Below the pieces are notes generated by a model. It was not told where the DNA came from and did not search any database. It worked only from the letters and a program-made list of their open reading frames with translations. DNA of 64,000 nucleotides from Hyalella azteca (taxonomy: Eukaryota > Arthropoda > Malacostraca > Amphipoda > Hyalellidae). Shown in pieces: positions 21,480 to 64,000 of this stretch. A program made the position numbers and the translations under genes. Location of the stretch: contig NW_025935962.1 in the NCBI RefSeq assembly GCF_000764305.2, positions 248,001 through 312,000 of the forward strand, in the 5' to 3' direction. Within the stretch, counting starts at the first letter, position 1. The number at the start of each line of letters is the position of its first letter.

Positions 21480-22075
21480 TATTTTGTATGTGTATTTATA
21501 CACCAGTGGAACAAGAATGACATAAAGTATTTTTTCCTTGTTCATAAATGTGCAATAGCCAATATGTCCCCCCTTGTGCTGCACGGCAAACAGGTAGCCA
21601 AACTCGTCCCACGCGCGAAAAAGCATGTCTTCTGTAACTGAGTGCACCGTATCAGTGATACGGTTCTTCAGATCAATCAGAGTTGCTGGCAGAGGCGGGA
21701 CGTAAACAGAGTTGCTGGTAGAGGCGGGACGTAAACAGAGTTGCGGGTAGAGGCGGGACGTAAACAGAGTTGCTGGTAGAGGCGGGACGTAAACAGAGTT
21801 GCTAGCAGAGGCGGGGCGTAAACAGAGTTGCTAGCAGAGGCGGGGCGTAAACAGAGTTACTGGTAGAGGCGGGACGTAAACAGAGTTGCTGGTAGAGGTG
21901 GGACGTAAACAGAGTTGCTGGTAGAGGTGGGACGTAAATAGAGTTGCACAGAGTTGCTGGTTGGTAGAGGCGGAACGTAAACGGCTTCCTTGACGTAACC
22001 CCATAAGAAATAGTCACATGGGGTGAGATCAGGTGATCTCGGTGGCCAGAAGTGTAGGGCCAGATCTTCACTGAA
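21480..22075 (-). pseudogene. Mariner/Tc-like DDE transposase, C-terminal fragment
   Basis: Minus-strand reading from about 22070 gives FWPPRSPDLTPCDYFLWGYV followed by KEAVYVPPLP, the characteristic third catalytic Asp region of mariner-type transposases (SPDLTPCDYFLW). A repeat array follows, then TLIDLKNRITDTVHSVTEDM and FRAWDEFGYL down to about 21545. The N-terminal half is missing and frame breaks occur near the array edge, so it is a dead fragment. Confidence 0.82.
21682..21990 (-). repeat. 30-bp minisatellite expanded from the transposase VYVPPLPA motif
   Basis: About ten copies of a 30-bp unit encode NSVYVPPLPA in the transposase frame. The left units are the most regular; the rightmost is disturbed by a small insertion around 21942-21965. 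The unit length equals ten codons. Confidence 0.93.
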
Positions 22076-25244: not shown

Positions 25245-26735
25245 GAGTCCTGAGAGTGGAGATGAATGCGTTCACTTATCCCAGGCATTAGTCTTTGAAT
25301 TCCTGTCCTCAGGTGGATCTCGTACAAATATTTTACATGGGTGGAACCAAATATATGCCATCTGACATTTATAAATTGGTTTTACTACCAACAACTGTCG
25401 TAATCATATAAGAAATTTCTACTCAACTCAAAGAATTTATTCACTTTACACAGCACAAGGGCTGTATGATTTTCACTCGGTTCGGAATTCGACTTGCTTG
25501 CAGTGAGTGTGGTAATTCCTATCGATATTTTAACGAATTTATCACGGCAACCACGCTGAATGAATTCTACGACTGTCAGTTCAGTCGTAAATTTTAGATT
25601 TAATACCAAAATAACTGGGATATCAACTTGGAATTCGCCTCTAACCCAAGGTATTACAATTGTACAAACGCTGTAATAATTTCACCTATCGGTAGGCGAA
25701 CTTCATTCCCTTAATGTTGATTCTGTGTTTGACTAGCACACCTTTGACGAGTATCACGGGTTATATGTAGTAGGTTCATATGAACACGAATAATCGTTTA
25801 ATCACAGGTCTTCGTTATTATCTATGTATGACATGTTATTTTGAAGGCTCAATTGCCCAAACAAATTGGCTCATAATTCCCATTTTCAACATTCATTTGG
25901 ACGAAGGACATCGTATGACTGCGTTGAAGGTATCAAATATCTACAGTAGGCTGGAGTAAAATAATGCTTAGAGCGGGTAGAATACACCTCTAAGCATTAT
26001 TTTACTCTATTGTGCACCTCAGGATCAAACTTCGAGGATCGCTGAACACGAGTTGGAACTGTCATATTCTGAGTTGAAAAATACTCGTGAGTTTAACGAC
26101 TTTTCTTTGAACAGTCGGGGCTGTATCCTGATAGGTAAATTCTGAATTTTATCGAGTGCAGAGTAGTAGCGTGATTCAGCCTCCCTATTTTTTTATATTT
26201 TTTAGTTATGTCATGCTAATTTATTACAATTAATATTATATTAAAAAAATGCCGGAAAATTCTACATTTTACCTGGATTTGCTTCAAATTATATAAGCAC
26301 AAAGTACTTCCTGCTTTCCTTTTTTATTGTACCGTAGTTGTTGGCTGCTTGTGAAATGAAAAATTCGCTCACAACTGTACGTCTTCTCGGGACTTCCTCT
26401 CCCTGCCCTCAAAACCTAGTGACGCCGCTGGTGCAGTGCGGTGATGATCATGTTACATTCACATTGACCCTTTTTTGATACCTAAATTGAATGAATGCGC
26501 CTACTATGAATATTTGCGCCCGTGTATCACTTATCAAAGAACCATGTTGGTAAGCAATCATTGTATTTTGCTTTAGTTTTTGCAGGTACCGTCGTGTTAT
26601 GTCGATTCCTGAAGCGATGCACGAAAAAGATTCTATCCACTTCAGATATAATAGATTCTATTCGCTATTTCTATCATTCTATTCGCTTCAAAAAAAAATA
26701 ATTTTAAAACTTCTTGAATAAATGTGAGTATAATA
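25245..26735. other. Left-arm flank downstream of the CBM14 gene, no gene seen
   Basis: 25245-25690 is the second copy of the 450-bp direct repeat. 25700-26110 matches 62820-63230 in reverse complement (for example ATCGTATGACTGCGTTGAAG), and 26340-26700 matches 62130-62480. No coding region is supported. It represents the duplicated 3' flank shared with the chitinase locus. Confidence 0.75.
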
Positions 26736-27007
26736 TTTGAATGCGTTCCTCGTGCTTTCGATGATCACCCATACGAACACCATTGCTCATATGACCATGA
26801 CTATCCATATGATCAATATCTATAAATCCATACGTGTGACTTATTCCATCTATATGGCCATCCGTATGATGAATATATCTCATTTAACCAATATAACCTA
26901 CATAACTACTATTGAAGGCTACGTTGAACCGTATGGCAAATTAACTATTTTTCATGTTTTTTTCGGTTTTACTGGGGGTCTTCATCTAACTTGCATAATT
27001 TTCAATC

Positions 27008-30000
27008 CTAGTCGTATTTTTCGTCCCAGAAGGCGGAGACGTTGCATGTGGTCGTGTCGACATGGGATGGGAAGTCACAAAAGCCGGTGTCTGCGTTGTA
27101 ATAGAGCCCGTCCGCACAAAACTTCTGTACCGGCTCTCCGTGCTCACATTCGTAGTACTGCAAATTGAATTGAAGACAATCTTAGCAACCAATATTCCCT
27201 TAAGCCCTAAATCAAACTTATCAGGTGATGAACACAGTGAGAATAAAGTAAAAATGTATATATTTAGGAGATTTGTTTTACCAATGACTATGAGTGATTT
27301 GGCTTACTCTGTGGAGACTCACACTGATATTCGCATCTATGCTACAGCGAAGCTTAATGCTAGTTATAGCTAAGTATTTATTTGACATACTAAGTTAGTG
27401 CTAGGAATACGTCATAGAAGTTCTTCATTCATTATTCAATATTACATCAGCTGATTATACCTTCTTAAAATTGTATTTATTTATTTCAAGCACCCTCGTG
27501 CACTGGGGTGCGCTGTTTAGAAATACTTAGGGATGGTTATCAAACCTCGTTGCATTCCGCGCCAGCGTAAGTTATGCCGTCCGCCTCGCACGTCCACACG
27601 CGGCAGTTGCTGGTGTCGACGTTCTCGGGGAAGTCGCAGCGGGACGTCTGGGGGTTGAAGTACGTCCCGGGGGCGCACAACATCAGCTGCGCCTCGCCGT
27701 TGATGCACCACCAATACTGTTTACCGGAAAAATTTGTAATCGAATAATTCGTTCAAATATTTTTTGATTTCCTACAATTGTGCCGATGTCGAATAGAAAT
27801 GGTGTATAATAACTCAGAAACTGATGGAAATGCTATCTACCGAATCTAATCACCTTGTTGCATTCGTCATTTGGGTAGAACTGACGACCAGGGTCAGCGT
27901 TGCAGTCGGGAGGTTTCGGCCACGTTGGTCCACTGATGGTAGTCGTGCGTGCGGTGGTAGTTGGCGAAGTGGTAGTGGTCGTAGGAGAGGTTGTCGTGGT
28001 TGTTGGTATTGTCGTGGTAGTTGGCGTCGTTGTGGTAGTAGATGTGGTAGTGGTTGGGCTGTTGCAGGTGCTCGTGTCGACATTGGCTGGGAAGTCACAC
28101 ATGCCGGTGTCTGCGTTGTAATAGAGTCCGTCTGTACAAAACTTCTGTACAGGCTGTCCATGCTCACATCTATAGTACTGTAAATTGAATTCAAAACAAT
28201 CTTAGCAACCAATATTCCCTTTAACCCTAAATCAAATTAATCAGATGATGAACTGTGCTGGAGTATCATGAACAGAGAGAATTGCACCAAAGAAAACTGT
28301 CGTTTCCACCACGTTAAATCAATAAAAAAAATAGCGGAGAAAATGTCAATAGAGCGAGTACCANGCAGGCCATACGATACGTCTAGCCGACGCAACAAGG
28401 TGGCGTGGTCGACCGTGTCAAATGCAGCGGAAAGATCGAGTAAAGCCAGCGCCGCAATGTTGCCACAGTCGACCGCCTGCAGAATATCCGAAAGAACCTT
28501 CAGCATGGCGGTCTCCGTCGAGTAAAAACGACGGTATGCAGACTGTAGGCGAGGCATGAGACCTGACCTATGAACTAAATGCATCAGTTGGAACTAAAGC
28601 AACTCCAGATGAGGGAGCTGCTGGGCCGGGGTAGCCTGGCAGATCGGTGTCGCTGCAGGTAAGAACATCAAGAAGGGAAGAGTCTGGCATTCTGCTGGTC
28701 AACATCGAAGGGCTCTTCCCACAAAGAGCGTCACAAGATTGGCGTGCTGAGAAAGATGGCCGGCGAGGGTGGGATCTTTATGATTGCGGACCTTCACGTA
28801 CAGGATCAGCAACATGAGGGAGCTGGACCTGAACTACTGGGAAGGCTGAAACACCTGGGACTGTACTCACTGGAGAGGAGAAGAGAGAGGCATATCATAC
28901 TGTACACTTGGAAGATGATAATTGGACTGGCTCCCAACTCTGAATGTGAGATCTCCAGAATAGTAAAATATTACAACGAAAGGAGGGAGAGACTGTGCAG
29001 GATTCCTCCATTCCACAACCGTGCCACGGCCACAGTACAGACTCTTCGTGAAGGATCACTGTCGTGGTAGGACCAAGTCAGTTTAACGCCTTATCAAAGG
29101 TGCAGAGAGGAGGTGCGTTTACCCTTGCGACTTCCAAAAGACAACTGAATAAGTTTCCGAAGAAGACCCCGGATTGTCCAGTAATGGGAAACTACCCTCA
29201 GCAAGTGACAAGAAACAGCATCTTGCATCAGCTGGCCCAAAGGAGGTCAAATAGACGGAACACGTCCAACGTTACATTTGGGACCCAAGGGTGATGTGAC
29301 TAGCCTATCGACGACTTGGAAACAGAGGACGACGAAGGCGGAGCATCAGCTTGACCATGGACTGAGAAGTCCTAAAATCATCATAAGAACACATTGAGAA
29401 TCAAGTTAAAAAATTAAATTTAAGAGATTTATTTTCCCAATGAGTGATTTGGCTTACTCTGTGGAGACTCACACTGGTATTCGCATCTGTGCTACAGTGA
29501 AAAGCTTAACGCCAATTATAGCTAAGTATTTTTATATTACATACATAGTTGTGCTACGAATACGTGATAGAAGTTCTTCATTCCTTATTGAATATTACAT
29601 CTGATGATCAAACCTTATTAAAATTTTATTTATTTGTTTCAAGCATCCGCGTGTCCTGCTAAGGAAGACTTTGGGATGGTTTTGCACACCTCGTTGCAAT
29701 CCGCGCCAGCGTAAGTTATGCCGTCCGCCTCGCACGTCCACACGCGGCAGTTGCTGGTGTCGACGTTCTCAGGGTAGTCACAGCGGGACGTCTGGGGGTT
29801 GAAGTACGTCCCGGGGCTGCACAGCATCAGAATCGCCTCGCCGTTGATGCACCACCAGTACTGTTAACCGGAAAAAGTTGAAATCGAAAAATTTTGTTCA
29901 GTTATTTTTCGATATACTAAAATTTTGCCGATTTCAAATGCAAATGGTGTATAATAACTGGTGTAATACAAAAATGGTGTAATGTAATGGTGTATAATTT

Positions 30001-32469
30001 CACGCAGAAACGGATAAAAAAGCCATCTTACGAATCTTCTCACCTTGATGCAGTCGTCATGTGGGTAGAACAGACGACCAGGGTCAGCGTCGCAGTCGGG
30101 AGGTTTCGACCACGTTGGTCCACTGGTGGTAGTCGTGCGTGCGGTGGTAGTGGTCGTTGGAGTGGTGGTCGTGGACGTGGTCGTAGTTGTTGGTGTTGTC
30201 GTGGTAGTTGGCGTCGTTGTGGTAGTAGATGTGGTGGTGGTTGGGCCGTTGCATGTGCTCGTGTCGACATTGGCTGGGAAGTCACAAAAGCCGGTATCTG
30301 CGTTGTAATAGAGCCCGTCCGCACAAAACTTCTGTACAGGCTCTCCGTGCTCACATTCGAAGTACTGCAAATTGAATTGAAGACAATCTTAGCCACCAAT
30401 AATCCGTATGGCCCCAAACCAAACTAATCAGGTGATGATCACAGCGAAAATGAAGTTAAAAAGTATATTTTTATGAGATTTATTTTTCCCAGGAGTGATT
30501 TGGCTTACTCTGTGTAGGCTCACACTGGTATTCGCATCTATGCTACACTGATAAGCTAAACGCTAATTATAGCTACGTGTTTATAATACATACTTAGTCT
30601 TGCTAAGAATACGTGATAGAAGATTTCATTCATTATTAAATATTAAATCAGCAGATTAAACCTTCTTAAAAATGTATTTATTTATTTCAAGCACCCTCGT
30701 GTACTGTTAAGGGGATGCGTCTTGGTAAAAAAAAAAACTTTTTTATGTACGGACGGATCACTTCGAAATTCATTACACGTATGTAAAATGGAATTCTAAG
30801 ACTTTTTTGTTCGTGAGAACTTTTCGGAAAAAATGAAAGAAAACGTGAAATTCTTAGAAAACTGCCAAAAAAGGGGGTACTGTAGAAATATCCGCGGGCC
30901 TAGGATTTCCAAGCTACATCGAGATACATCATTCGATGCGTAAAGACCATATCTACAAATTGATGCAGGCTTCTTTGAAATTCCCATTTTGATGGGTGTG
31001 GGAGCATTTTTCGTAAATTTTTTCATTTTACCCCTTTCCACTCCCCCTTTTTGCAAAATAAAATCCAAACTATAACGAAATTAGAAAATCGAATGGTATA
31101 TGTCGCATTGCTGTAGCTTTAAAACTGTAGGAGATAAATGGCTTGCAAGTTACAAAAATGTTATTTTTCAGTAGGGCCCGACAAAGTCCCGGGCGCCTCG
31201 AAATCGGCATTCAAGGTTGCAAGGATGCAAGACAAGACGATACTGGAGCTTAGTTTCTGTCAAGGACGGTGAGAACGACGGCGCGAACCATCCCACCCGA
31301 CTGCAGAAGGGTTACTGGAGCGGAAATAGTGAAGACTAGCTATTTAAGGTGCACTGAGGCATTTACTCCCTATGTTAAATGTTATATAACTCCACCAACT
31401 CTTGCCCTATCGCGATCTGTCGTGAACGCATAAATCAACGTACAGAGATGGTTTTGGTACCGTTGGATAGGGCAGAATATCAGCTTTAAGATGAGACTAA
31501 AAACCGGAAAAGCCAAACTTGTTGATTTTGGACCAAACGCTCCCCTTAAGAAAGACTTAGGGATGGTTATCAAACCTCGTTGCATTCCGTGCCAGCGTAA
31601 GTTATGCCGTCCGCCTCGCACGTCCACACGCGGCAGTTGCTGGTGTCGACGTTCTCGGGGAAGTCGCAGCGGGACGTCTGGGGGTTGAAGTACGTCCAGG
31701 GGCTGCACAGCATCAGCTGCGCCTCGCCGTTGATGCACCACCAATACTGTTTACCGGAAAAATTTGAAATCGAATAATTCGTTCAAATATTTTTTGATTT
31801 ACTACAATTGTCGAATGGAAATGGCGTATTATAACAGAAGATTCACGCAAAAACTGATGGAAAAGAAATCTACCGAATCTTCTCACCTTGACGCAGTCGT
31901 CATGTGGGTAGAACTGACGATCAGGGTCAGCATCGCAGTCGGGAGCATTCGACCAGCCTGGATAAAATTACATGAAATGGGGTTTGAATTGAGCCGTGAG
32001 TACTTCAAACTTGATTTTCGCTGACTCAACACCCAATAAGATTTCGAATGGGGTTTCGCAATGAGAATCAAATTGTTCATGATGTCCTGTTTAAGCAGAA
32101 ATTTCTTCACTCAAAAATTGTAAGATAAATGGAGGTCATGATAGACCCAGAAAACCTTTATTGAACCATATATTTCATTTCAAAAGTTTTCCGCTTATGC
32201 AAAAAACTTGAATGTTTTATTTGCATAAATTGTTCTTAATTTTCATTTTCCATTCCAATAAAAAGTTCTCTACTAAAAAATTGTCTAGTAGTATATAAAA
32301 ATGACGCTGCGATCAATTTTTTAAGCCACAAAAATTTCTGAACGCACATAAAAAGTTCATCCGAGTGGAACAAGTTATTATTATTCCAAATTTTAAATGC
32401 GTCTGCCTCACCTTGGGCAGCAACTGTGCTGCATAGCGCAAAGAGCGCTATCAATAAGAGAGATCGCAT
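27008..32469 (-). CDS. Secreted chitin-binding protein with six CBM14 domains, chitinase-derived, no catalytic domain
   Basis: Eight phase-compatible exons: 32469-32412, 31957-31887, 31746-31576, 30364-30044, 29860-29690, 28177-27854, 27716-27546, 27157-27008, giving about 478 residues. Exon 1 encodes the same signal peptide as the chitinase at 56543 ([19 protein letters not shown]). Exon 2 begins GW, like chitinase exon 2, then jumps into SNAPDCDADPDRQFYPHDDC. Six-cysteine CBM14 domains lie at about 26-81, 86-138, 190-245, 250-302, 355-410 and 415-467, as three pairs separated by two Thr-rich linkers (TTTTPTTTT), probably O-glycosylated. The product should be secreted and bind chitin, as peritrophins do, for example in gut lining or cuticle. 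No GH18 motif is present. Three donors after CNE read GTTTGA or GTGTGC; failure to splice the GTTTGA ones gives an immediate stop. The introns hold a TTAA-target element and retroelement debris. The gene could be an unexpressed copy, but all exons are open. Confidence 0.83.
28240..29385. mobile_element. Non-LTR retroelement fragments inside an intron of the CBM14 gene
   Basis: Minus strand about 28584-28370 encodes LQSAYRRFYSTETAMLKVLS followed by ALALLDLSAAFDTVDHATLL, a reverse transcriptase core block (DLSAAFDTVDH). Plus strand about 28744-29300 encodes LKHLGLYSLERRRERHIILY and a downstream C-terminal region of a reverse transcriptase. The two pieces face opposite ways, so at least two insertions or an internal rearrangement occurred. 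The equivalent chitinase intron (61297-61668) lacks this block. An N lies at 28364. Confidence 0.82.
30711..31545. mobile_element. piggyBac-like non-autonomous element with TTAA target duplication
   Basis: TTAA flanks both ends (30707-30710 and 31546-31549). Termini are imperfect inverted repeats: GGGGATGCGTCTTGGT and, in reverse complement of the other end, GGGGAGCGTTTGGTCC. The related chitinase intron shows the empty site with one TTAA (TTTCTTAACAGTACACGAGG near 61319-61336). About 835 bp; no transposase seen. Confidence 0.85.
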
Positions 32470-33035
32470 GTCACGTTAACTGAAGGTATTCTGATCAAAT
32501 AGTGTGATTGAAATAATTCTTCCTTATTATATGTGAAGCTGATGCAGATATTACCAGCTGAGAAATGTAGCCGAGGTCAGATGCGTGAGAATATCTTGAG
32601 TATTTGCAGCCTGACTGATAAAAGCAGATTCTGTTGAAGGTTGCAGGCACTGTATGCAGAGATGGTCAAAGAAATTTTATTTGAAGTAGTTATTTGTATA
32701 TGTATTTGCTTTCAGAAGCATGTTTGTATTGTATGTTACCAATTTATCTGAGAATTAAGTAGTTTTTAATTTTTCTGGAAAGTGTACATCTTTTAATCAA
32801 AGAAATTATTATATTTCTTTTTCGGCTTACAAGCTTCATACTACTAATAAGTAAACGGTATTGAATACATTTACGGACAATTATGATTAACAATATAATT
32901 AATATCTGTGACATTACTCGAAGCGAGAATAAATGTTGACGCATGAATGAGTTATAACGCAGTTTTTTAGTTTATGGCCGTTGCACCTGGTGTTGGTTCT
33001 TGTTTCAAATTCTAGTTATCCTTCTGTGACCTTCT

Positions 33036-33154
33036 ATAAGGGGAGAGTCTGGTCCCAAATCGACAATTTTGGCTTTTCAGTTTTTATGCTCATCTCAAAG
33101 CTGACTTTCTGACCTATCCAACGGTACCAAAACCATCTCTGAACGTTGATGTAA
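33036..33154. mobile_element. End fragment of the same TTAA-element family
   Basis: Begins GGGGAGAGTCTGGTCCCAAA after a TAA and matches, in reverse orientation, 31430-31545. It breaks off where the hAT-like element starts. Confidence 0.75.
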
Positions 33155-33843
33155 GCCAGTGGTTTCCAAACTTTTTCAGGCTGGCGCCCCTTTGGCTCCC
33201 TAGTGAATTTCTAGCGCCCCCCACAGACATACGCCTCTTTCTTGAAATTTAGTTCGCTGCAATTTTAAAAGATAAAGGATAAACAAAAATGTGTATTTCA
33301 CAAATAGAACCCCATTTAGTGAACCAATATCTTTTTCAGCTGTTTTAACTGTTTCAGCACTAGAAACCTAGGACGTCGCGGGCGAATTTACGGCCGGACT
33401 CGTGGTCGGTCTCACGACCAATCTCCAAATTCAGTTATCAAGTAATATCTCCCCAACTAATGAACGCAGCTCTATGAAACTTGAAACACGTATTCATCAG
33501 TACATAATGGTGATGTTTAGCTAATATTTTTTTTAATTTCACCTTCATTCGTGAGTTACGCGTATATTGCGAAACCGTCCGAAATTGGCAGTCATCAAAG
33601 AATTTCTTCCAAACTATTGATTCAGATTTTCATCACTCCACCCCCCCAAACAGATCTGGATGAAAAAACCATCGCTGGGAGTCATGTGCTGCACTAGTTG
33701 TGTACATATCGTCAAACAAACGTTAGAACTTCTGACATTGACTTCATGCTACCGCCCCCTACCGCCCTCTTCTTCCTTACCGCCCCCCAAAATCTTTCCA
33801 CCACCCCTAGGGGGGCGATATCGCCCACTTTGTGAACCACTGG
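33155..33843. mobile_element. hAT-like non-autonomous element
   Basis: The left end CCAGTGGTTTCCAAACTTT and the right end, reverse complement CCAGTGGTTCACAAAGTGG, match the CAGTGGTTC-type inverted repeats of hAT elements. About 690 bp, no transposase. Flanking 8-mers are only partly alike, so the target duplication is eroded. Inserted in the TTAA-family fragment. Confidence 0.65.
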
Positions 33844-33879
33844 TTTAAACTCTAATCAGACGCTGTTACGAGTTCCTAT

Positions 33880-34330
33880 ATAGATGCAGAAGCGATGAAG
33901 CAGTGGTTTGTTGCTGTCGTGCGCCCGAATCTAGAGTTTGTAAACGTTGTGTTGTCTCCGAGATTTGAAAATGACTAGGATTCAATAGAGAATATTCAAA
34001 GACGTGCTACGAGGATAATTCCAGGCTTGAATGGCAAGTCCTATGAAGAAAAATTAAAGACTATGAAGCTTCCAAGCCTCAGTTATCGACGTCTGCGTCA
34101 TTGAAGTAGACAAGTATACTCATGGTTTATACAAGGTCTCCGAAGGATTACTAGAATTTGGAACAAGAACCAACACCGACATGTGGAACAGCTTCGAATC
34201 ACCGACATGTGGAACAGCTTCCCTGATAGCATCGCTGACGCTCCGACTATGAACGCCTTCAAGAACAGACTAGAGTCACTAGACGAAGCTATGCAGGAGC
34301 ATATGTTCAGTCTTTAAATGCCTATAGCAA
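33880..34330 (+). pseudogene. Non-LTR reverse transcriptase C-terminal fragment
   Basis: Plus-strand translation gives QWFVAVVRPNLEFVNVV, then ENIQRRATRIIPGLNGKSY and LKTMKLPSLSYRRLR, the usual C-terminal signature of CR1/Jockey-like elements. In-frame stops are present and the MWNS..PDSI block is partly duplicated at 34170-34230. Confidence 0.82.
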
Positions 34331-34339
34331 CTTACGGAC

Positions 34340-35440
34340 CAATAGTGGTTTTGATAATACGGCCCCAGATCTTCACTGCCTAAGCGTCATACCAACGCTC
34401 AGGACGTGACCGATTCAAAAAGTTTCAGACATCAAGGTTACAAAGTTTTGAGAGAGGCGAGAAAATTTTTGAAAGTTGAGAAAATTTAAATTTTGGAAAA
34501 GTTGAGAAAATTCTATAATCATTCGCTTTCCATTGGTATATAAATTAGTGATGTTGAATTTATGCCTAAATAAATACGAATTTGTGAAATTGGGTTCATC
34601 ATTTAGAATGACCCTGTACGTGAGGTATGGGAAGCGATTTGGACCTGAGCTTCAGGACAAGATGTTTTCTTTAGTAGTAGGCTAAGATAATTTAAGATAA
34701 AGGCTAAGATAAAGTTTTGATAATACGGCCCCTGCAGGCAACAAGTCCAGCAGCTATCTCAATCAATCGTCAGTTATGGAAAGATTGGGTACCAAAGGCC
34801 GGATCCCTTGTGGACGCAAGTCACGAAAAGTACCAGAATCGGCAACAGGCCATGGTCCTATTTCTTCAGTGCCGACACTTATATTCTATTAAATAGTGAG
34901 ATTCAGAGCATTGACGACACGAATGGGAGTAGGACAAGCGAGTGCCGGAGCCGATCGACATGGTGGATGCGTCTATAGGCTGCGATGGGCCGCATGCAGA
35001 TAAGAGGAGTTGGTCTATTACTGACTTTTGGTAAGCTTGACGACCTAATACACTAAATATACAGCGACTTACTACAAAGAAGTCACGGAATGTGACGCGA
35101 GAGATATTACTGACAGCATGGGTAGTGACGTATGAATTAAGTCGCCTGACATAAAACGCAATATTAGTCAGGTAATTATTAGGTTCATGGCGCTCCAAGT
35201 ATGAACGCGTTCAAGAACAGACTAGATAAAGCTATGGAAAAATATATGTTCAGATTTGAAATGCCTAGCTCCTTATCGAACCCGGAGGAAGTCTAGTAGC
35301 TACTTCAAACTATCGCCAGTCATGAAAAGATCCGGTCAAATGACACGAGTTTAGATCTATGAACAAGGCACGAAAAGGAAAAGAATCGGCGACAGGCCAC
35401 ATCAGGCCTACACTTCAGCGCCGACATCACTATGTTATGT
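34340..35440 (+). mobile_element. Further retroelement-tail remnants
   Basis: 34430-34700 repeats the AT-rich block of 22130-22530. 34740-34900 matches the tail at 22555-22700. 35190-35300 is another diverged C-terminal piece (SMNAFKNRLDKAME). No intact frame; nothing else recognised. Confidence 0.7.
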
Positions 35441-35444
35441 TATG

Positions 35445-38150
35445 CTATGATGTATTCCAAATATAGGGAAATCGCTGTAGATTAATTGTTTGCTGGTTTT
35501 AATTTGAAATTTATGCCCGATTTCATGCTATTCATTATCGAATTCATTATCGCGGATGATCTTAGAACGGATTCAACGAGGACATTGAATTCGTTTAGTT
35601 TCCTGTTTTGGTCAGCAACTTGTGGAAGTCATGGGTTCTTTTATTTTATTTTTCTATTTTCCGACACTAAAACCACAAGTCACTCTACTTGACAGGTCAT
35701 AAGTCAGCGATGCGTGAGAAGTAAATATTTTTTATATTTTGCCAAGTTTGAGGGAACGTAAAAGTATTGTTCATTTCAAGCATGTTTTAACAGTTTTGTA
35801 TTTAAAAATCATTAAATGGTTCCCCACAGCATTTCTGTAGAACCGTTTTCATCTGAAAATCTACCTCATGCAGTATAAATGCAGCGTAAATTAATGTAGA
35901 ACAAACAAAAAGTTGTTGTGAACTGCCTTATCGTAGCTACATAATCCCAAAAGTGATAATAAATAGGGACAATTATGCATGTCAAATTGGTGAACATTCG
36001 TAACAGTCTAACAGATCGTAACAGTAACAGAAATACTCCTCTAGCTACTAGTAAGTCAACAGGCACTTAGTTGTATCAAAATAATTTGAATGCTAACATT
36101 TCAAATATCGGATTGTTTGACACGTACGTCGCTCAAAAACAAATGAGTATTTATGTACCCTGGCGATTCAAAAAAGTGACGTTTAAGAAGTTTACAAAAA
36201 TATATATTATACGAGGCGAATCAAATACGAAATTTTATGTAGGAAATGTGTTTGAAATTTTGACTCGACGAACGTTTTATTACAGGTTGATTAGTTTAAA
36301 GTTCGTTTGAATGTTCAATTCCCGCACCACTACCTGCATTTTCTAGACTACTAAAGATCAAGTTTTCGTTCCTGTGGGCGCTTCTATGCAACAGTCTTTG
36401 GAGTCGAGGGAGCGCAGTGCAGGAGCAGCGTCCGCCTCCACGCAAGTTAGGTTTGTTGGGCAACGTCCATTTGCATTACGTTCAGTATTGGCATGAAATT
36501 TATTAATTCACTTTAAATTTCATCAGGTAGTCTTCAAAATCACAAATGTCATATGTCATTTTTAATATTCGGCTTCCCCTAAAATAATTTTTAGGAGCCA
36601 TATGCCAAGCTGTATTTAAAGCTTTCGCTGTTGTTATGCATTTAGACTTTGGAAGTTTTGGAGAATCGTGGCTATCGTAGGAATTTATAGGTTCTACTGA
36701 GGCCGTGATCGGTTGGATAATAAAGCGTTGGACAAATATTCAGGCTAATTAATTCTGTTAGTTGGGCCAGAGGTTGACTCAGTTAGGAGATGTGAAAAGA
36801 TGGCCAGAATCGATCAGGTAGAATCATCGCATGTATAAGGAGATTTTGGGATACAATAGGTTCTGAGGAAACTAAAAAATATAGTGCGCGAAAGAGAACT
36901 GCGAACAAGGCCATAATTAGAACATGAAGTTCACATAGAAGTTAATATTCCATAATTACGCGAAACAGAAATTTAATATTCGAAACTTTCATATTCAGAA
37001 CCATTAACTATTACGGTTCACAAAGCAACATGGATGGTGCACTATGAATTAAGAATTCAATTCACACCTATTTCACTTATTAATTCAATTCCTCTCACAT
37101 AAAACATTACATAATAGTTTCACCAATAACTTCACTCTAGCCACTAAAAATATTAACTGAAATTAATTGCTTCAACTTCATTTGGTTTCACTGAACAGTA
37201 TCAGCATAATGAGGATCTCAGTCAACATAACTCGCCTCTACGGCGGGTCGTCATAAAATTCTTGAGTAATATAATATCTAATTATTAATGTACGAAATGA
37301 TCGTTTGATTTTTAAGTACAAAATTAATATACTTTTACAATACAAACGTGAACATTTATTAACTTTCAACACTCATCCAGTGGATAATACAATTTACCAG
37401 AACACAAGCAAAAGAACTTGCCACCCTTCGTGTTGAAATTAGCGCTACGTACCTGAATTATCGCGAATTGCATAATATTGTTACTACCAGAACCTAAAAC
37501 TATTACAAAATTATCAGATATTATAGATATTGAGTCTGACCAGGATTAACTGGCTTAAAATGTGGATTATATTTATTCTGTATTCACTCTATTTAACATT
37601 GACAAACAGATGGGGCTCACAGTTGAATTGTACACAATTAAAGCATTAGAATATATAAAAATACTGTTTTATTCTAATAATACTCTTGAATCACTACACG
37701 ACTGATTGCTTTAAATCTGTATTCAAAAACTTTGTACAATTAATTAACTTCGACTTTTCACAAAAAGCACACAAAAACATGTTTCTTATTCTATTTACAT
37801 CAAAATTATCATAGTTTTTTTGCTGTGGTCTGCATCAGCTTATATGCAGCTAAATAATCTCGCATGTATTTAATCTCTCTTTTCGTAAGAATAATTCACG
37901 CAGCGAAGAGAGCGGGATTTTGAATTTTTAAATAATTTCATTCACAACTTACGTCTTCTCTCTCAACAGCAAACGACGCTTTTATGTATTAATTAATTGT
38001 TTGAAAATGTTTAGATCGAATAATAAAGCATTTTTGCAGCCGTTTATATTTAAAATGAGAGTCGAAAACGTACGAAAATATTTTCTGACTGATTTAAATC
38101 CTTTTAACTTTCAACCTTTTGGCTATTTTAATATTATTACTTTAAAATCA
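35445..38150 (-). repeat. Duplicated segment C, left copy
   Basis: Matches 53080-55017 in reverse complement. Shared landmarks include TTTACAAAAATATATATTAT, GTCCATTTGCATTACGTTCA-like and the block near 37900-38050. An extra stretch of about 1 kb (roughly 36646-37692) is present only here. Short open frames in it are shared but show no recognisable protein, so no gene is called. Confidence 0.88.
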
Positions 38151-53079: not shown

Positions 53080-55017
53080 TATACATTTTTATTGTAATAT
53101 CACAAGTGAGAAATATATTGTAAAAACCAAAAGTTTGAGAGTCAAACGGTTTATTTCAACCAGAAATTGTTTTAATACATTTTCGACTCTCATTCTAAAC
53201 TTTAACGGCTGCAAAAATGCTTTATTATTCAATCTCAACATTTTCAAACAAATAATAAATATATATAAGTGTCGTTTGTTGTTGAGAGAGAAGACGTAAA
53301 TTTTGTATGCAGTTATTTAAAATTCCGCGTTCTTCGCTGCGTGAATTATTCCTGCGAAAACCTGAGAGATTGAATCTATTTGAGATAATTTATCAGAATA
53401 TAAACTGATGGAGACCACAGTGAGCAAAAATAATAGAATTTTTATGTGAACAGAATAAAGAACATGTTTTTTTATTTTTTATATAAATAGTCTCTTAATT
53501 GGACAAAGTTTTTGTATACACCAAGAAAGCCATCAGTCTAAATGCATAACAGCGAAAGCTTTAATACAGCCTGGCATTTGGCTCCTAAAAATTATTTTAG
53601 GGAAAGCCGAATATTAAAAATGACAAATGACATTTGTGACTTTGAAGACCACCTGATGAAATTTAAAGTGAATTAATAAATTTCATGACAATACTGAACG
53701 TAATGCAAATGGACGTTGCCCAACAAACCTAACCTGCGTGGAGGCGGACGCTGCTCCTACACTGCGCTCCCTCGACTCCAAAGACTTGCATATAAGCGCC
53801 CACAGGAACGAAAACTTGATCTTTAGTGGCCTAGAAAATGCGACTAGTGGTGCCATGGTTGAACTAGTATAAGGTTGACCCACGAGAAGGACATTTTTGC
53901 GGATGTGGTTTGTTGTTCGCATGTGACGTCACTGATCTCAGTGACGTCACGGGAAATAACCAATCACCGAAATCCGATCAAACCAGTCAACCAATCCGCC
54001 ATGAGAATGACGGGATTGTTTACGTTTCTCGATCTCAGTGACGCAACAAGAGAGCTGAACTGAATGACGGAAATCCTCGTGGGTTTCTTATAGACGGAAA
54101 TCATCGTGGGTTTCTTTAACCTTATATAGTTCAACCATGAGTGGTGCGGGAATTAAAGATTCAAACAAACTTTAAACTAATCAACCTGTAGTAAAACGTT
54201 CGTCGTGTCAAAATTTCAAACACATTTCCTACATAAAATTTCGTTTTTGATTCGCCTCGTATAATATATATTTTTGTAAACGCATTAAACGCCACTTCTA
54301 TGAACCGCCCCCAGGTACATAAATACTCATTTCTTTTTGAGCGACGTGTCAAACAATCCGATTTTTGAATTGTTAACGTTCAAATAATTTTGATACAACT
54401 AAGGGCCTGTTGACTTACTATATAGTAGTTAGAGGAGTATTTCTGTTACTTTTACGAATGTTCACCAATTTGACATGGGTAAATGTCCCTATTTAATATC
54501 CCTTTTGGGATTATGTAGCTATAATAATGCAGTTCACTACAACTTTTCGTTTGTTCTACATTAATTTATGCTGCATTTATACTACATGAAGTAGAGATCC
54601 CAAGATAAAAACGGTTCCGCAAAAATGCTATGGGGGAACCCTTTAGGGATATTTTTTAATAAAAAGTTTTTCAGAATATGATAAAAACGTAAAAATAATA
54701 ATACTTTGCCGTTCCCATAAACTTAGTAAATATAACAAATGTTCAACTTTCACGCATCGCGGACATATGACTAGACAAGTTGTGTGCCTTGTTACTCATG
54801 GTTTCAGTGTCGGTAATTGCAATATAAAAGGAAAAATATTGCATTACTTCTTCAAGAAAGTTGCAGAACAAAAACTGAACTGAAGGAAAGACAGTGTACT
54901 TGTTGGATCCTGTTCTAAGATTATTCGCGATAATGAATTCGATAATGAATAACATGCAATCGGGCATAAATTTCAAATTAAAATCAGCAAAAAATTAATG
55001 TTTGGAATACATCATGA
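53080..55017 (+). repeat. Duplicated segment C', right copy
   Basis: Reverse complement of 35445-38150, lacking the extra 1 kb seen there but carrying a P-like MITE at 53854-54139. No gene recognised. Confidence 0.88.
53854..54139. mobile_element. P-superfamily-like MITE with 8-bp target duplication
   Basis: A perfect 13-bp terminal inverted repeat CATGGTTGAACTA / TAGTTCAACCATG is flanked by the direct repeat AGTGGTGC (53846-53853 and 54140-54147). Inward, ATAAGGTT and CCCACGA recur at both ends. The left C copy (near 36330) shows the uninterrupted site with a single GTGGTGCGGG. 286 bp, no coding. Confidence 0.85.
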
Positions 55018-56106
55018 TACCTAATAATTAGGTGACAAATATTGCGTTTTATCTTGAAGCACTGACCTCGACATGACAGTAATACGAGTGATATATGCAG
55101 CCATTATCCCATGCACAGCACGTGTTATGAGTCGACAACTCAGATAACGTGTATAAGTCTATATATGCAGCGCAAAAAACTGACCGAAACAACGGGGCTG
55201 ATAGTGATCATTGTTTAATTGAGGAGAAAAACATTTATGTATTTAATATCGTATTGTTCTTGTGATGGAATTATCGTATTGAATTATCGTATTGGCAGAT
55301 GGAATTTTATCGAACAAAAAATTCTGTGTGACCCGGTAATTTTGAATTGTTCAGTGATAGGTTTCAGTGAAGGATTATGCAATCGGATAAAATGCAAATT
55401 TTTACGCATCTTCGAATATGATTTTATTTTAGGAGCTCGTACATCTATTGTTGGGCGAATTTCCACATATGTATTTAAAATGAGTCATCACACATACGGA
55501 CGATGGTAGAAAAATATAAATTCCTTAAATTCGGCTCTTGGACGTCACTGAATAAAACGAATGTGTAGTGAAAATACTGTCGTGCTATCACAAGAATGAT
55601 AAGAAATCGAATTCCTGGTATCATGCACCTGTTTTACTGAGAACAATGCACATCGTACGAAATGCCAGGACCACGAATATGGTCTCCCGAAAACCCGATC
55701 GCGAAGTTGTTTCATGGTTAGATTCTGTATTCAGCTATACGACCAGGAAAAGATGAATTAAGATTCCATTAGGCTGCTGTACCTGGAAGTCTTCTTTGAC
55801 TTGCATTTCATTGAGAATATTAGTTTCCATGTCGCAAACTATTATTCAAGCATCGACTATAACTGAAAATAAAATTAAAAATTCGAATGCTTAAAAATCT
55901 TTTAAAAGCAAAATTGTTTAACAAGCAACGATGTATGAGAATTCAATTATTTTTGTTGGACGATTAACAAAAAAGCTCTTACTCGTAGATTAAATTTCCC
56001 CTGAAGTAAACTTTCTGAATGCCGCAGTCAGGACCTGTTATTTCTAAGCAGTAGGACTTTCTGACGAACACAAGTTAGTTAATTAGAATTTCTTCTTCAT
56101 ATAGCC
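55018..56106. other. Region between segment C' and the chitinase flank, no gene seen
   Basis: An open frame at 55219-55509 encodes a hydrophobic, Cys- and Ile-rich 96-residue peptide with no recognised domain and no splice context; it is probably chance. No repeat shared with the left arm was noticed. Confidence 0.5.
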
Positions 56107-56542
56107 AGCGATATTAATTATATTATTAATTATAATTGTCCGTAAATGTATTCAATACCGTTTACTTATTAGTAGTATGAAGCTTGCGAGTAGAAAAAAA
56201 TCTTAGACAGAAAGATGGACACTCTCAAGGAAAATGAAACGCTACTTAACTCACAGATAATTTGGTAAGATACAGTACAAACATGCATATGAAAGTAAAT
56301 TACTTGCACAATTAACTACTTCAAATAAAATTTCTTTGACCATCTCAGCCTGCAGTGCCAGAACTCGTATTGTTATCTCTACCCGTACTGTTATCTGCAG
56401 GGCTGCACATACTCAAGATATTCTCACGCATCCGACCACAGCTACATTTCTCAGCCGTTGATATCTGCATCAGCTTCACATATAATAAGGAAGAATTATT
56501 TCGATCACACTATTTGACCAGAGTACCTTAAGTTAACGTGAC

Positions 56543-59500
56543 ATGCGATCTCTCTTATTGATAGCGCTCTTTGCGCTATGCAGCACAGTTGCTGCCCAAG
56601 GTGAGGCAGACGCATTTAAAATTTGGAATAATTAATAACTTGTTCCACTCGGATGAACTTTTTATGTGCGTTCAGAAATTTTTGCGGCTTAAAAAATTGA
56701 TCGCAGCGTCATTTTTATATAATACTAGACAATTTTTTAGTAAAGAACTTTTTATTGGAATGGAAAATGAAAATTAAGAACAATTTATGCAAATAAAACA
56801 TTCAAGTTTTTGCATAAACGGAAAACTTTCAAAAATTAAAAATTTAGTTTAATACAAGTTTTCCGCGTCCATCATGACCTCCATTTACCTCACAATTTTT
56901 GAGTTAAAAAATTTCTGTTGAAATCGGAAATAAGAAACAATATTTTTTGTAATTACGAAACACAATTCGAAATCTTATCGGGTGTTGGAGCCAGCAAAAA
57001 TAGAGATGGAAATACTCACGACTCAAATGAAGCCCCTCATTCCATGTCATTTTCCAGGCTGGAATATTTGCTACTTCAGTTCCTGGGCGGTCTACCGCCC
57101 CGGGCTCGGCGCCTTCGACGTCGATGACATCGATGTTTCTCTGTGCACCCACGCAGTGTTCGGCTTTGCTGGCCTCAGCAACCAAACTTGGAAAATCGAG
57201 GTTAGTCTCATACGCTGAGAACATATGTAAATTCTGAGTGTCAATTTTTTGTGCTCGAATTCACGGTCATTTAGTTGCGGAAAAACATGCTGAAAAATAG
57301 CGCTTATTTTTTCTTCATTGCTGATAACTACACTGAATGCTTCTTTCACGCGACATCGAATGTACAAATTTCCGGCTGCAAAATTGAATTAACGGTGGGC
57401 AATGGCGGTGTGGGCTATGTGGTGTGGGAATGTGGGTTAGGTCTCATACTTTAGGTCCTTGTGAAAATGGTTTCAAACAACTTTCTACATCCCTTAATGA
57501 TTAGAAGGAATGGATCGGATAGGAAATCGTGGGCAATCCACGTAACTTAATATGTCTCAAAGTGGGTTGAAGAAATTGGCGAAGACTGGCCAATGGTCAT
57601 TTTCCTGACGTGATCTTTTTAGAAATATATGCATTTTTCTCTACATAGCTTTGTTGCTCTTTGTACCCTTTCAATGAAGGTCGATATTATATATGCCACA
57701 CCTGGTATTTGGGCACGGTCCCAGATTAGAGGTCAAGTTACATTGAAAATAAAATTGCTGGCACTTCACTTCACTATCTTTTTTGTGCAAGTGAATGACG
57801 TCTCGTGAAAGCGACCTCTATTTATATAGTATTTATCTTTATTTTTTGTCTACATCTTTCTACTTCTTCGAACTTTTGAGACCTTTTGTCCATTTCGGGC
57901 GATGAGAGGGACTTTTACTTTGAGGTATAACTAGTGGTAATCGACTCATTTTTTTCGTTTTAGGTGCGAATTATTTTACTTTCTATGTAAAATAGCAAAG
58001 CAAAAGGCCTTGCAGCCGATAGACACCGGCAATCAAATATCGCAAACTTATCGGCCCATTTGACGTGCAAATATTCAGTATTGAGGTGAAAAGTTGCCGG
58101 AATGTCTGATCTTACTTTTTGTAATCAGGTTTTGGATCCGTGGAATGAGAACTGCCCTGATGACGACCCCCCCGGCGACCACTGCGCTTACAAGCGATTT
58201 GTTGCCCTCAAGCAACAAAAACCAGAACTGAAAGTGATCCTGGCGGTGGGCGGCTGGAATGAAGACTCCGAAGATTACTCAGCCGTGAGTATGGCGTCCA
58301 GATTGGAGTTCCTGGAGTAATAAAGAGGACGATGCTAGTGTCATTAACTTATTTCCCCACATTCACTTCGACTCTATGATATTCGTACAGGGTTAAGTAG
58401 TATTAAGATTAGCATTGATCCAAAGCACGAAATTCATTACAAATATTTGCCGATTATTTAATTCGATTATTGCCATAGAACAGAGAAATAGATCTATATG
58501 TAATTCGAATTTGATCAATATAATCCACAGATGGCTAGAGATCCTGCCAAGCGAGCGACATTCATCGAGAGCAGCGTACAACTTCTGCAGAAAGAAGGAT
58601 TCGACGGTCTGGATATGGACTGGGAGTACCCAGCTCGCCGGGGCGGCATGCCTGAAGATAAGGTGGGTGGGAGAAGTTGCTGCTATTTCTGAAGTTTCAC
58701 TCAATTCAGTTATTTTTGGATTTGGCTAAATTATTAGCAGTTAGAAATAATAAAATAAAAGCAAAATGTTTTTTTTTTGCCTTCATCTCAAATAATGCAC
58801 ATGATCGAACGTGCTGAAAATTTTCCAGGCAAATTTCATCACTTTGTTGGATGAAATGAGAGCGGAATTTGACAAACACGGCTACCTGCTGACGGCAGCC
58901 CTCGCAGCGGGCAAACCCACGGTCGATGAGGCTTACGACGTGCAAGGCCTGGTGAGGAACCTAGACGTGTTCAGCATCATGACTTACGACTACCACGGCG
59001 CCTTCGAGAACTTCACCCACCACAACGCCCCGCTGTGCGCCTACCCCTCCGACGAGGGCGACTTTATTTACTTTAACGTGGTTAGTGAATCAAATAAACT
59101 AATGCTAATACAATTCCGCTCGTCCCACTTATTAAATATGGTATCTGTGGTCGGTGTGGCTAAGGGATACATTTTTTCGGACGTAGGTTGCTTCTGTGAA
59201 GTACTGGTTGTCGCTGGGAATTCCCCGCGAGAAGACGGTAATGGGAGTCCCCCTGTACGGCCGCTGCTTTACGCTGGACAACATTGAGGATCACGGCATG
59301 CTGGCCGACGCATCCAGGCCCAGCAAACCTGGACCTTACACCAGCATGCCTGGATCTTTGGGCTATAATGAGGTAAGAACAGAGCAGTATCATTCCATGG
59401 TAAAAAATACTGTCTGAATTTTATGCTTGCGTGCAAAATTTCCTTCCACCCTTCTTTCCTTCTGCGCAGCTTACTTCGGGCGGAAATATACCATGATCGG

Positions 59501-61818
59501 ATTATGAAAGTTTTATTTAATAAGCATTTAAACTCGCTAATTGGGGATTTATTGAGAAAAATGCCTTAATGTTTATGCAAAAATCAAGTGTTATATTTAA
59601 TGTACCTCGAGCTGAAACAAAAATTTCCCGACTAACTACTTTTTAAAAATCGAGTTTTGATGAGCTACAAGTTTAAATTTGAATTTAAGCTTTTAAACTT
59701 CTCTTGTGTCTCAATTTAATTTGCAGTACTTGGAAATAAAAATTTCACAGTAACATTATCTCATGAACGCTTTCGCAGCTTTGCCCGCGTTTAAAAAACA
59801 CAGACGACTGCACCATAGTTCACGACCCTCTGCTCAACGAGCCTTACTTCTACTGCCTGAGTGACAGTATTTGGTGCGGCTATGACGACGTTGACTCCAT
59901 CTACCTTAAGGTAATAGATGTTCTTAGTCATTTATTGACTGTGTAACAAATCATTATTGATTGTGTAATAAATATTCGACGCAATTTTATTGAAGAGCAG
60001 AGAGTATTCCTTTTAAGCACATTTCTCACTGCGTCTCAACGAAACTTACATTAAAGAACAGCTTCCGTCAAACTATACTAAAAAATCTTAGACAAAAACA
60101 AATGTTTTGAAGTCTTTCTATTATAATAAATAGCGTTTTATATTAAAAAATCAATGTAGTGCACATGAATAATTATTGTCAGGCACGGTTCGCTAAGAAC
60201 CAGAACCTGGCCGGTACTGTGGTGTGGACCATCGACACCGACGACTTCCTGCCGACCTGCGGCAGTGACAAGAACCCCCTCATCCGCTCCGCCCTGAGAG
60301 CATTTGCCGAACCCGCGGATCCGACCGCCCCAGTAAATTTAATTTGACTTCAACCGTGTTCAGCAGTTAACCTTCATCAGCTTATCTAACCTAAAAATTT
60401 GACAAAATTATTGCCGCTCACTAACTTTAGCATTCATTCCTACATTGTTTGGACCTCAACATTTTAATTATTATTTTTTAATTACATATTTTATTTTAAA
60501 GCAATATTTTAGTTTTCAAGATTCAGTTTTAATGTAGCTTTCTTTCTGTGCGTAAATTAAAACTTTCTTCAGGACTGTCCAAACGCTCCCATCACCACTA
60601 CGACCACCTCTACCACGACCACACCTACGACGACCACTACACCTACCACAACCACTACACCTACCACGACCACTACACCTACAACGACCACTACGCCTAC
60701 CACGACCACTACGCCTACCACGACCACAACTCCGACAACTACCACACCTACGACCACAACAACTCCAACAACCACCACCACATCTTCTACCACAACGACG
60801 CCAACTACCACAACAACACCAACAACCACGTCCACGACCACCACTCCAACGACCACTACCACTTCGCCAACTACCACCACAAGTAAGACTACCACCAGTG
60901 GACCAACGTGGCCGAAACCTCCCGACTGCGACGCTGACCCTGGTCGTGAGTTCTACCCACATGACGACTGCAACAAGGTGAGAAGATTCGGTAGATGGCT
61001 TTTCCATCAGTTTCTGCGTGAATATTCAGTTATTACACACCATATCTATTCAACATCGGCACAATTGTGTTACATCAAAAAATATTGGAACGAATTCTTC
61101 AATTTCAACTTTTTCCGGTAAACAGTATTGGTGGTGCATCAACGGCGAGGCGCAGCTGATGCTGTGCAGCCCCGGGACATACTTCAACCCCCAGACGTCC
61201 CGCTGTGACTACCCCGAGAACGTCGACACCAGCAACTGCCGCGTGTGGACGTGCGAGGCGGACGGCGTAACTTACGCTGGCGTGGATTGCAACGAGGTTT
61301 GATAACCATCCTTAAGTGTTTCTTAACAGTACACGAGGGTGCTTGAAATAAATACAATTTTAAAAAGGTTTAATCAGCTGATTTAATAATGAATAATGAA
61401 TGAAGAACTTCTATCACGTATTCTTAGCACGACTAAGTATGTAATATAAATAATTAGCTAAAATTAGCATTAAGCTTATCGCTGTAGCACAGATGCGAGA
61501 ATATCAGTGCGAGTCTCCAGAGAGCAAGCCAAATCACTCATTGGAAAAAATAAATCTCCTAAAAATATACTTTTTAACTTAATTTTCGCTGTGATCATCA
61601 CCTGATAAGTTTGATTTAGGGTTTAAGGGAATATTGGTTGCTAAGATTGTCTTCAATTCAATTTGCAGTACTACGAATGTGAGCACGGAGAGCCGGAAAG
61701 GAAATTTTGTGCGGACGGGCTCTATTACAACGCAGACACCGGCTTTTGCGACTTCCCAGCCAATGTCGACACGAGCACATGCAACGTCTCCGCCTTCTGG
61801 GACGAAGAAGACGATTGA
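56543..61818 (+). CDS. Secreted GH18 chitinase with Thr-rich linker and two CBM14 domains
   Basis: Eleven phase-compatible exons: 56543-56600, 57058-57200, 58129-58284, 58531-58662, 58829-59080, 59187-59372, 59779-59910, 60183-60332, 60573-60977, 61126-61296, 61669-61818; about 644 residues. Signal peptide 1-19 ([19 protein letters not shown]); GH18 domain about 21-400 with [22 protein letters not shown], catalytic [11 protein letters not shown] (acid Glu about 151, in exon 4), [19 protein letters not shown] and [10 protein letters not shown], all in the expected order. Exon 9 encodes a linker of about 100 residues rich in Thr and Pro, then CBM14 domains at about 521-576 and 581-633. The enzyme should hydrolyse chitin outside the cell, in digestion or moulting. 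After CNE in exon 10 the donor is GTTTGA; if unspliced the protein stops at 61300-61302, and AATAAA follows at 61347. Exon 11 ends [11 protein letters not shown] and has AATAAA at 61882. Intact by all visible criteria. Confidence 0.94.
60594..60890 (+). repeat. Coding Thr/Pro repeat of the chitinase linker
   Basis: Irregular 12- to 18-bp repeats (ACGACCACTACACCTACC-like) encode TTTTPT units. Shorter versions occur in two linkers of the CBM14 gene. Probable mucin-like O-glycosylation region; prone to length change. Confidence 0.9.
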
Positions 61819-64000
61819 AAAATCCTGCAAATTAGAAGAATACCAGTAAAACAGAAAAAAACATGGGAAATGGACAAGAAAAATAAAAAGAAGAAAATGA
61901 TTCAATGGCCTTATGGTTAAACGTATTCATGACAGTTGTTATGTGGATTATATTGGTCATACGGATGGCCCTATTTAAAATATTCGTCATACGGATAACC
62001 ATATAGATAGAATAAGTCAAACGGATGGTTATCGAGGATGGTTATTGATCATATGGATAGTCATATGGGCAATTGTGGTCGTATGGGTAATCACCGAAAG
62101 CACGAGGAACGCATTCAAATATTCAAATATTACTCACATTTATTCAATACGTTTTAAAGTTTATTTTCCTTTATATAGCGAATAGAATCTATTATATTTG
62201 AAGTGGATAGAATCTTTTTTGCGCACCGCTTCAAGGATTGACGTAACACGACGGTAACTGCAAAAACTAAAGCGAAATACAATGATTGCTTACAACATGG
62301 TTCATTGATAAGTGATACATGGACGCAAATATTCATAGTAGGCGCATTCATTTAATTTAGGTATCAAAAAAGAATCAATGGGAATGTAACAAGATCATCG
62401 CTGCACTGCACAGCGGCGTCACTAGGTTTTGAGGACAGGGAGAGGGAGTCCCGAGAAGACGTATAGATGTGAGCAAACTTTTCATTTCACAAGCAGCCAA
62501 CAACTACGGTACAGTACAACAAAAATCGCAGGAAGTACTTGTGTTTACATAATTTGAAGCAAATCCAGGCAAAATGTAGAATTTTCTGGCATTTTTTCGT
62601 AATAATATAATAATAATTGTTATAAATCAACGTGAAATTACTAAAAATATGCAAAATATAGTTTAAAAATGTTAAGGAGGCTGAAGCCCTCAAAATAGGC
62701 CCAATCATGCCATTTCTCTGCAGTCGATAACAACAATTAATCAATCAAGATACTGCCACGACTGTAAAAAAAAGTCGTTTAACACGTATTTTTCAACTTT
62801 TTTTTCAACTTCAACACGTATTTTTTTCGTATTTTTCAACTTAGAATATGACAGTTCCAACTCGTGTTCAGCGATCCTCGAAGTTTGATCCTGTGGTGCA
62901 CAATAGTTCGTGTATTCTACCCGCTATAAGCATTATTTTACTCCAACCTACTATAGATACGGAGATATTTGATACCTTCAACGCAGTCATACGATGTCCT
63001 TCGTCCAAATGAGTGCTGAAAATGGGAATTATGAGCCAATTTGCTTAGGCAATTGAACGTTCGAGACAACATGTCACACATAGATTCCTATACGAAGAAT
63101 TCTGTGATTAAACGATTAGTCGTGTTCAAGTACTATAACACGTGATACTCATCAAAGGTGTGCTGATATGTCACACGTAGAATCAACATAAAGGGAATGA
63201 AGTCAGTCTCTCGATAGGTGAAATTAATACAGCGTTTGTACAATTTTAATAACACGGGCTAGAGGCAAATTCCACGTTAATTTACCAGTTTCTCGGCACT
63301 ACATTTAAAAAAATAGGACTGAACTGACAGTCGTAGAATTCATTCAGCGTTGGTGCCGCAGTAAAATGAATAAATTCGTGAAAATATTGATTTGAATTGC
63401 CACACTCATTGGAAGCGAGTCGAATTCCGAAACGACTGAACTGATGCTAGTGAAAATCATACAGCCTTTGAGCCGTTGCTCAGTGAAAAAATTCTTTGGG
63501 TTAAGTGGAAGTTTATCATATGATTACCACAGTTTTTGGTAGTAAAACTAATTTAAAAATGTCAGATGGCATATATTTGGTGCCACCCATGTTAAATATT
63601 CGTATGAGATCCACCTGAGGGCAGGGATTCAAAGACTAATGCTAGGGATAAGTGAACGCATTCTTCTCTACTCTCGTCTTAACACGTCGTGGTTTGTAAA
63701 ATGGAATAGAATAGAAGTGTCGGCATTGAAGAAATTGGCCCATAGCCTGTTGACGATGCTTGAACTTTTCGTGACTTGATTCACAGGGAATCCGGCCTTT
63801 GGAACCCGATCTTTCCATAACTGACGATTGATTGAGATAGCTGCTGGACTTACGGCCTGGGTCCGTAATTTGCTAGGCATTTTAAGACTGAACATATGAT
63901 CCTTCATAGCTTCGTCTAGTCTGTTCTTAAAGGCGTCCATACTCGGAGCGTCAACGATGTAACAATGTAATGGCAGAGATTTAGATACACAGCCAACACC
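61819..64000. other. Downstream flank of the chitinase gene, no gene seen
   Basis: 61900-62100 is a 3' flank with scattered CATACGGATGG-like words, also found in diverged form at 26750-26930. 62130-62480 and 62820-63230 match the left arm. 63230-63690 is an inverted copy of the 450-bp direct repeat, and 63700-63960 (minus) is a retroelement C-terminal tail (MDAFKNRLDEAMKD). The homology to the left arm continues to, and presumably past, the window end. Confidence 0.75.

Follow-up and report, generated by a model that had tools for sequence, protein, structure and literature searches.

Likely origin of a six-CBM14 gene from a duplicated chitinase by loss of its catalytic exons in the amphipod Hyalella azteca

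A 64,000-nucleotide stretch of the Hyalella azteca genome (contig NW_025935962.1, positions 248,001 to 312,000; hereafter the window, numbered from its first base) contains a chitinase gene on the plus strand and a gene on the minus strand that is predicted to encode chitin-binding CBM14 domains only. Did the minus-strand gene descend from a chitinase, and by what changes did it come to lack a catalytic domain? From the comparison of the two loci, we consider it probable (about 0.8) that a copy of the chitinase lost its GH18 domain and gained CBM14 cassettes, and that its predicted product, with six CBM14 domains, is now secreted and without enzymatic activity.

Both gene models were built from the sequence alone. 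The minus-strand gene (32469-27008) had eight exons and 1437 coding nt, with GT-AG boundaries at 7/7 introns and no internal stop in a predicted protein of 478 aa. Pfam assigned six CBM14 stretches to this product (E 3e-65) and no other family, GH18 (PF00704) included, at E up to 0.001. The N-terminus, judged by eye, resembled a signal peptide, and the 36 cysteines followed six regular CBM14 spacings with six per domain. The initial annotation's signal-peptide-plus-CBM14 product was therefore predicted again here. Peritrophin-like proteins likewise have multiple CBM14 domains, each with six cysteines, and the missing GH18 domain places the gene outside the Crustacean Group 4 chitinases. The plus-strand chitinase had a strong GH18 match (PF00704, E 3.6e-85), and its translation contained what we take to be the GH18 catalytic motif. 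It also carried two CBM14 stretches, the number of chitin-binding domains in the Group 4 definition given in the consulted part of PMC8002005.

Alignments (blastn and MAFFT) and the rebuilt exons bore out the initial annotation's coordinates and its observation that the two genes share promoter-side DNA, exon 1, intron 1, and CBM14 exons. One blastn match joined 32906-31953 to 56110-57062 (86.3% identity, E 0), a second joined 31955-31546 to 60909-61326 (89.7% identity, E 1e-151), and the two overlapped by exactly TGG at 31955-31953. Homology, which took in promoter-side DNA and the first exon and intron, ran up to the GGC TGG of exon 2 and then jumped to chitinase exon 9. Minus exon 2 reads GGC TGG TCG AAT GCT CCC GAC, and the linker copies in minus exons 4 and 6 and in the chitinase read ACG TGG (T/C)CG AAA CCT CCC GAC. 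The junction thus fell where it had been proposed, at a Trp codon shared by chitinase exons 2 and 9 (31955-31953/60909-60911). An alternative junction, deriving the NAP of exon 2 (TCG AAT GCT CCC) from the beginning of chitinase exon 9 (CCA AAC GCT CCC), was not adopted because the linker match, by eye, extends further downstream. The deletion equivalent of 57063-60911, first put at about 3.85 kb, came to 3849 bp on computation, and phase was kept as claimed, since the 1485 lost coding nt are a multiple of three and the 478-aa frame is open.

Little of the missing region could be found elsewhere in the window. A tblastn search with the translated chitinase, cut off where exon 9 begins, matched the shared signal exon outside the chitinase (E 2e-6) and nothing else at E<1, and a blastn search with 57063-60765 recovered Thr-rich linker matches and short matches at chance level, with no catalytic remnant beyond these. 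The best short match (30 bp, 90%, E 0.001) paired chitinase intron 59707-59735 with 30385-30356 at the splice acceptor of minus exon 4, and is perhaps a relic of a CBM14 exon or chance. The initial annotation had invoked a microhomology deletion. The TGG overlap stood, but microhomology of at least 3 bp occurred in 5.2% of 20,000 random exon 2/exon 9 junctions of the chitinase, and we reject it as a proven mechanism.

Catalytic loss may have taken one step, as first suggested, but the six-CBM14 architecture did not, because it also requires an exon-11/exon-9 fusion and a re-duplication. The minus gene carries six domains in three CBM14 cassettes, the chitinase two domains in one. In minus exons 4 and 6, an exon-11-like start is fused to an exon-9-like linker and end, and both exons share the fusion junction TGCAAC[G/A]GCCCAACCAC; one tandem duplication and one re-duplication therefore suffice. 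Intron distances among the four cassettes spanned 9.7-16.6%, their sites split 9, 6, and 7 in what approaches a star, and a single clade of the three minus cassettes was neither demonstrated nor rejected (p-AU 0.22).

A quick tree without bootstrap, of 40 rows hand-picked out of 145 proteins plus the window chitinase, placed the chitinase within a 25-row clade (SH-aLRT 99) that also held the named Chitinase 4 of Penaeus vannamei, Scylla, and Eriocheir. This clade comprised decapod, stomatopod, krill, and other proteins, with P0034 and P0054 nearest to the window chitinase. Among the best 120 of 308 matches, catalytic-region identity peaked at 63-66%, in jgi proteins P0054 (66%) and P0034 (65%) and a merc protein (64%), with other values in this range from decapods and stomatopods. 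The clustering of the chitinase with named crustacean Chitinase 4 makes it likely that the catalytic domain was lost in the minus copy. A tree of CBM14 pairs joined the three minus cassettes to the chitinase cassette, next to P0034 (100/99) and apart from 20 other pairs, and 21/21 outside rows were listed as GH18+CBM14. A chitinase ancestor with loss in the minus copy is the simplest reading, and the derivation by loss in the initial annotation agrees with both trees, on a sample that is biased as described below.

Protein searches with the minus product gave 31 matches among 7972 scored candidates, 11 with GH18 and 20 without. The match with the best E-value, probably helped by Thr-rich linkers, was to a butterfly protein with CBM14 only, 25% identical over 83% of the query. 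Crustacean chitinases reached 42-44% identity over 24-28% of the query, and two CBM14-only proteins reached 45% and 48% over just 8% and 5%. Residues 1-140 had one match, a chitinase, among 61 candidates. Neither of these low-sensitivity searches (31/7972 and 1/61 matches) returned a relative of the fused gene. Searches of PDB with the catalytic part (142 chitinase-type sequences, 60 of them listed) and with the first CBM14 pair (6 sequences) left the reading unaltered.

The order of events that we infer begins with an inverted duplication of a segment carrying a crustacean Group-4-type chitinase. An internal deletion in the minus copy would then have joined the start of exon 2 (GGC TGG) to the linker and CBM14 part of exon 9. 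This would have taken out the entire GH18 domain and left the promoter side, signal exon, splice acceptor, and phase intact. Before or after this deletion, the two-CBM14 cassette would have multiplied to three. The predicted product would be secreted and non-catalytic, with six CBM14 in three pairs and Thr/Pro linkers between them, and may bind and crosslink chitin. Its most likely site would be the gut lining, if the parent was a digestive chitinase and the minus gene inherited its expression. The consulted part of the literature gives hepatopancreas as the only site of shrimp LvChi-4.

Several points weigh against this scenario. In the CBM14-pair tree the window-cassette grouping had support of only 97/31, with long branches flagged. 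The outside rows came mostly from the catalytic-region search, and 4/25 proteins with adjacent CBM14 pairs were removed by hand (P0017, P0018, P0020, and P0024, three of them CBM14-only), so that the sample used for polarity favors chitinases. Either the cassette expansion or the deletion may have come first. Expression in a variety of tissues, described for Macrobrachium nipponense MnCht4 in the consulted part of its source, weakens the gut inference. Pairwise Ka/Ks between cassettes was not low (0.34 to 1.03, on about 70 synonymous sites). Finally, in a scan for four hexamers within about 800 nt, the AATAAA located 63 nt past the chitinase stop was missing from the minus copy, where the first AATAAA lay at 679 nt; AGTAAA occurred near both stops, at 34 nt in the minus copy. 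The absence of a nearby AATAAA calls for caution about the function of the minus gene.

These last two points are also what speaks for the minus locus being a decaying pseudogene that is still open by chance, as do the stretches of 834 and 1133 bp in its introns that have no chitinase counterpart. The first overlaps a segment (31434-31552) that matches 33150-33032 in inverted orientation, and the second contains an open reading frame (ORF) with a weak reverse-transcriptase match (PF00078, RVT_1; E 0.0049), below the Pfam cut-off. However, the 1437-nt frame is open and all splice sites are intact. When the three minus cassettes were each compared with that of the chitinase, exons showed 0 indels over 1071 aligned positions and introns 22 over 1529 (p 1e-5, a rough value since all three comparisons use one common chitinase row), and substitutions amounted to 6.9% in exons and 12.1% in introns. 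At half the pairwise intron rate, roughly 7.7 cassette-exon indels would be expected on one lineage, and none was found. Constraint on the cassettes is thus visible in length and rate and absent from Ka/Ks, and we regard decay as unlikely.

An assembly artefact, whether misjoined haplotypes or loci or a false deletion, is very unlikely. The window has two ambiguous bases, one of them (28364) in intron 5 of the minus gene, but none near 31955. The two genes lie in the arms of a gapped inverted duplication, in which 25252-26876, 26953-32906, and 35481-38130 match 63675-61980, 61865-56110, and 54999-53121 at 79-94% identity. One arm piece (36324-36648 vs 53853-53535) stood above its neighbors at 93.5%. 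The DNA separating the genes held ORFs at 41546, 43099, and 46226, all on the plus strand, that matched three parts of NAT10/TmcA (N-terminal, helicase, and acetyltransferase), so that an RNA cytidine acetyltransferase gene probably occupies 41546-46540, between the arms. One gene assembled twice is disfavored because of the inverted order, the divergence of roughly 10-20%, the differing intron stretches, and this intervening gene.

The arms were not uniformly diverged. A tract that takes in exon 1 and runs halfway through intron 1 had about 99% identity, against about 85% around it: mismatches numbered 3/286 within, 51/411 upstream, and 46/235 in the remainder of intron 1. Fisher p was 5e-13 for bounds picked after viewing the alignment. 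Shuffles that scanned all positions gave as clean a window in 0/2000 cases at each of four window sizes. The tract suggests later gene conversion between the arms, and a conserved regulatory stretch is a possible alternative cause. Because the tract fits gene conversion, the identity of the signal exons is not plain evidence of a young duplication.

The reverse polarity, in which a CBM14-only gene is older and the chitinase acquired catalytic exons, can draw on the 20/31 protein matches listed without GH18, but is hardly credible given that the window chitinase sits within a crustacean chitinase clade, that the minus cassettes are nearest to its own cassette, and that minus exon 2 opens with chitinase exon 2 sequence behind a homologous intron 1.

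Elsewhere in the window, Pfam was run on 10 hand-picked ORFs of 34 listed, with a weak RVT_1 match in one, NAT10-type matches in three, and no family in the other six. Rfam gave nothing at gathering threshold in the window, and self-comparison revealed repeated stretches at 16340-16720, 21675-21953, and 47086-48820. Table 1 collects the features of both loci.

Table 1. Features of the two chitin-binding loci and the surrounding duplication, in window coordinates.
Feature	Position	Strand	Description
Exon 1	32412..32469	-	ATG and most of signal peptide; 58/58 nt identical to chitinase exon 1
Exon 2	31887..31957	-	Chitinase exon 2 GGC TGG fused to CBM14 half of exon 9
Exon 3	31576..31746	-	Middle CBM14 exon, cassette 1
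Exon 4	30044..30364	-	Exon-11-like half CBM14, Thr/Pro linker, exon-9-like half CBM14
Exon 5	29690..29860	-	Middle CBM14 exon, cassette 2
Exon 6	27854..28177	-	Fused exon of exon 4 type, fusion junction shared with exon 4
Exon 7	27546..27716	-	Middle CBM14 exon, cassette 3
Exon 8	27008..27157	-	Last half CBM14, C-terminal tail, stop
Parent-type chitinase	56543..61818	+	11 exons, 644 aa: signal peptide, GH18, Thr/Pro linker, two CBM14
Chitinase stretch missing from minus gene	57063..60911	+	3849 bp, 1485 coding nt
Upstream DNA	32470..32906	-	Homologous to chitinase promoter side; 361/425 ungapped columns identical (MAFFT)
Near-identical tract	32195..32481	-	Exon 1 and 5' half of intron 1; 3 mismatches/286 aligned bases, 2 gaps
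Unmatched stretch, intron 3	30712..31545	-	834 bp, no counterpart in chitinase intron
Unmatched stretch, intron 5	28254..29386	-	1133 bp, no counterpart in chitinase intron
Left arm of inverted duplication	25252..38130		Gapped
Right arm of inverted duplication	53121..63675		Gapped

The proposed descendant can be compared with several known systems. It has a putative signal peptide and the Thr/Pro linker and paired CBM14 of the Crustacean Group 4 chitinases, but lacks GH18 and has three CBM14 pairs rather than one. Peritrophins and CPAP-type proteins are secreted, non-enzymatic CBM14 proteins. The predicted minus product would resemble them in all three respects; the consulted part of PMC8002005 reports CBM14 domains from chitinases and from peritrophic-matrix and cuticle proteins. 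The minus gene differs from them in that its promoter side, signal exon, and CBM14 exons all lead back to a single neighboring chitinase, and in that its location is putative. A parallel is the viper P-IIIe metalloproteinase gene VaaMPIII-3, which according to the consulted part of PMC9028321 lost seven exons including the catalytic domain by genomic deletion. Both genes belong to an expanded enzyme family, and in the minus gene, too, deletion of the catalytic exons would have left ancillary domains. VaaMPIII-3 belongs to another family and animal, however, and also lost part of its disintegrin-like domain; its product was shown in cDNA and venom, whereas the minus gene is known from its DNA, and the cassette expansion of the minus gene had no counterpart in that part of the source. 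Varroa Vd-CHIsal (PMC7744053) and fungal SiCHIT2 (PMC13039781), chitinases without a carbohydrate-binding module in the consulted parts of these sources, represent the reverse case of domain loss among GH18 chitinases, with the enzyme kept and the binding domain absent. Deletion of catalytic exons was thus already known from the snake metalloproteinase (PMC9028321), and a literature search mostly outside subscription journals, with sources consulted in part, found no chitinase with gene-level loss of its catalytic domain.

The window holds an enzyme gene and its probable catalytically empty descendant side by side, with the junction, the frame, and the parent all readable, and so shows concretely how a chitin-degrading protein could give rise to a chitin-binding one. 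More tentatively, a single in-frame deletion may have turned a digestive chitinase into a structural binder on the enzyme's own promoter, so that enzyme and protector would be co-regulated, and peritrophins may have arisen repeatedly from chitinases that carry CBM14 pairs. The snake venom parallel (PMC9028321, consulted in part) suggests that binding proteins arise more generally by the loss of catalytic exons. For peritrophin-like genes, such an origin can be tested in some cases by looking for remnants of chitinase exon 1 and exon 2 at their 5' ends.

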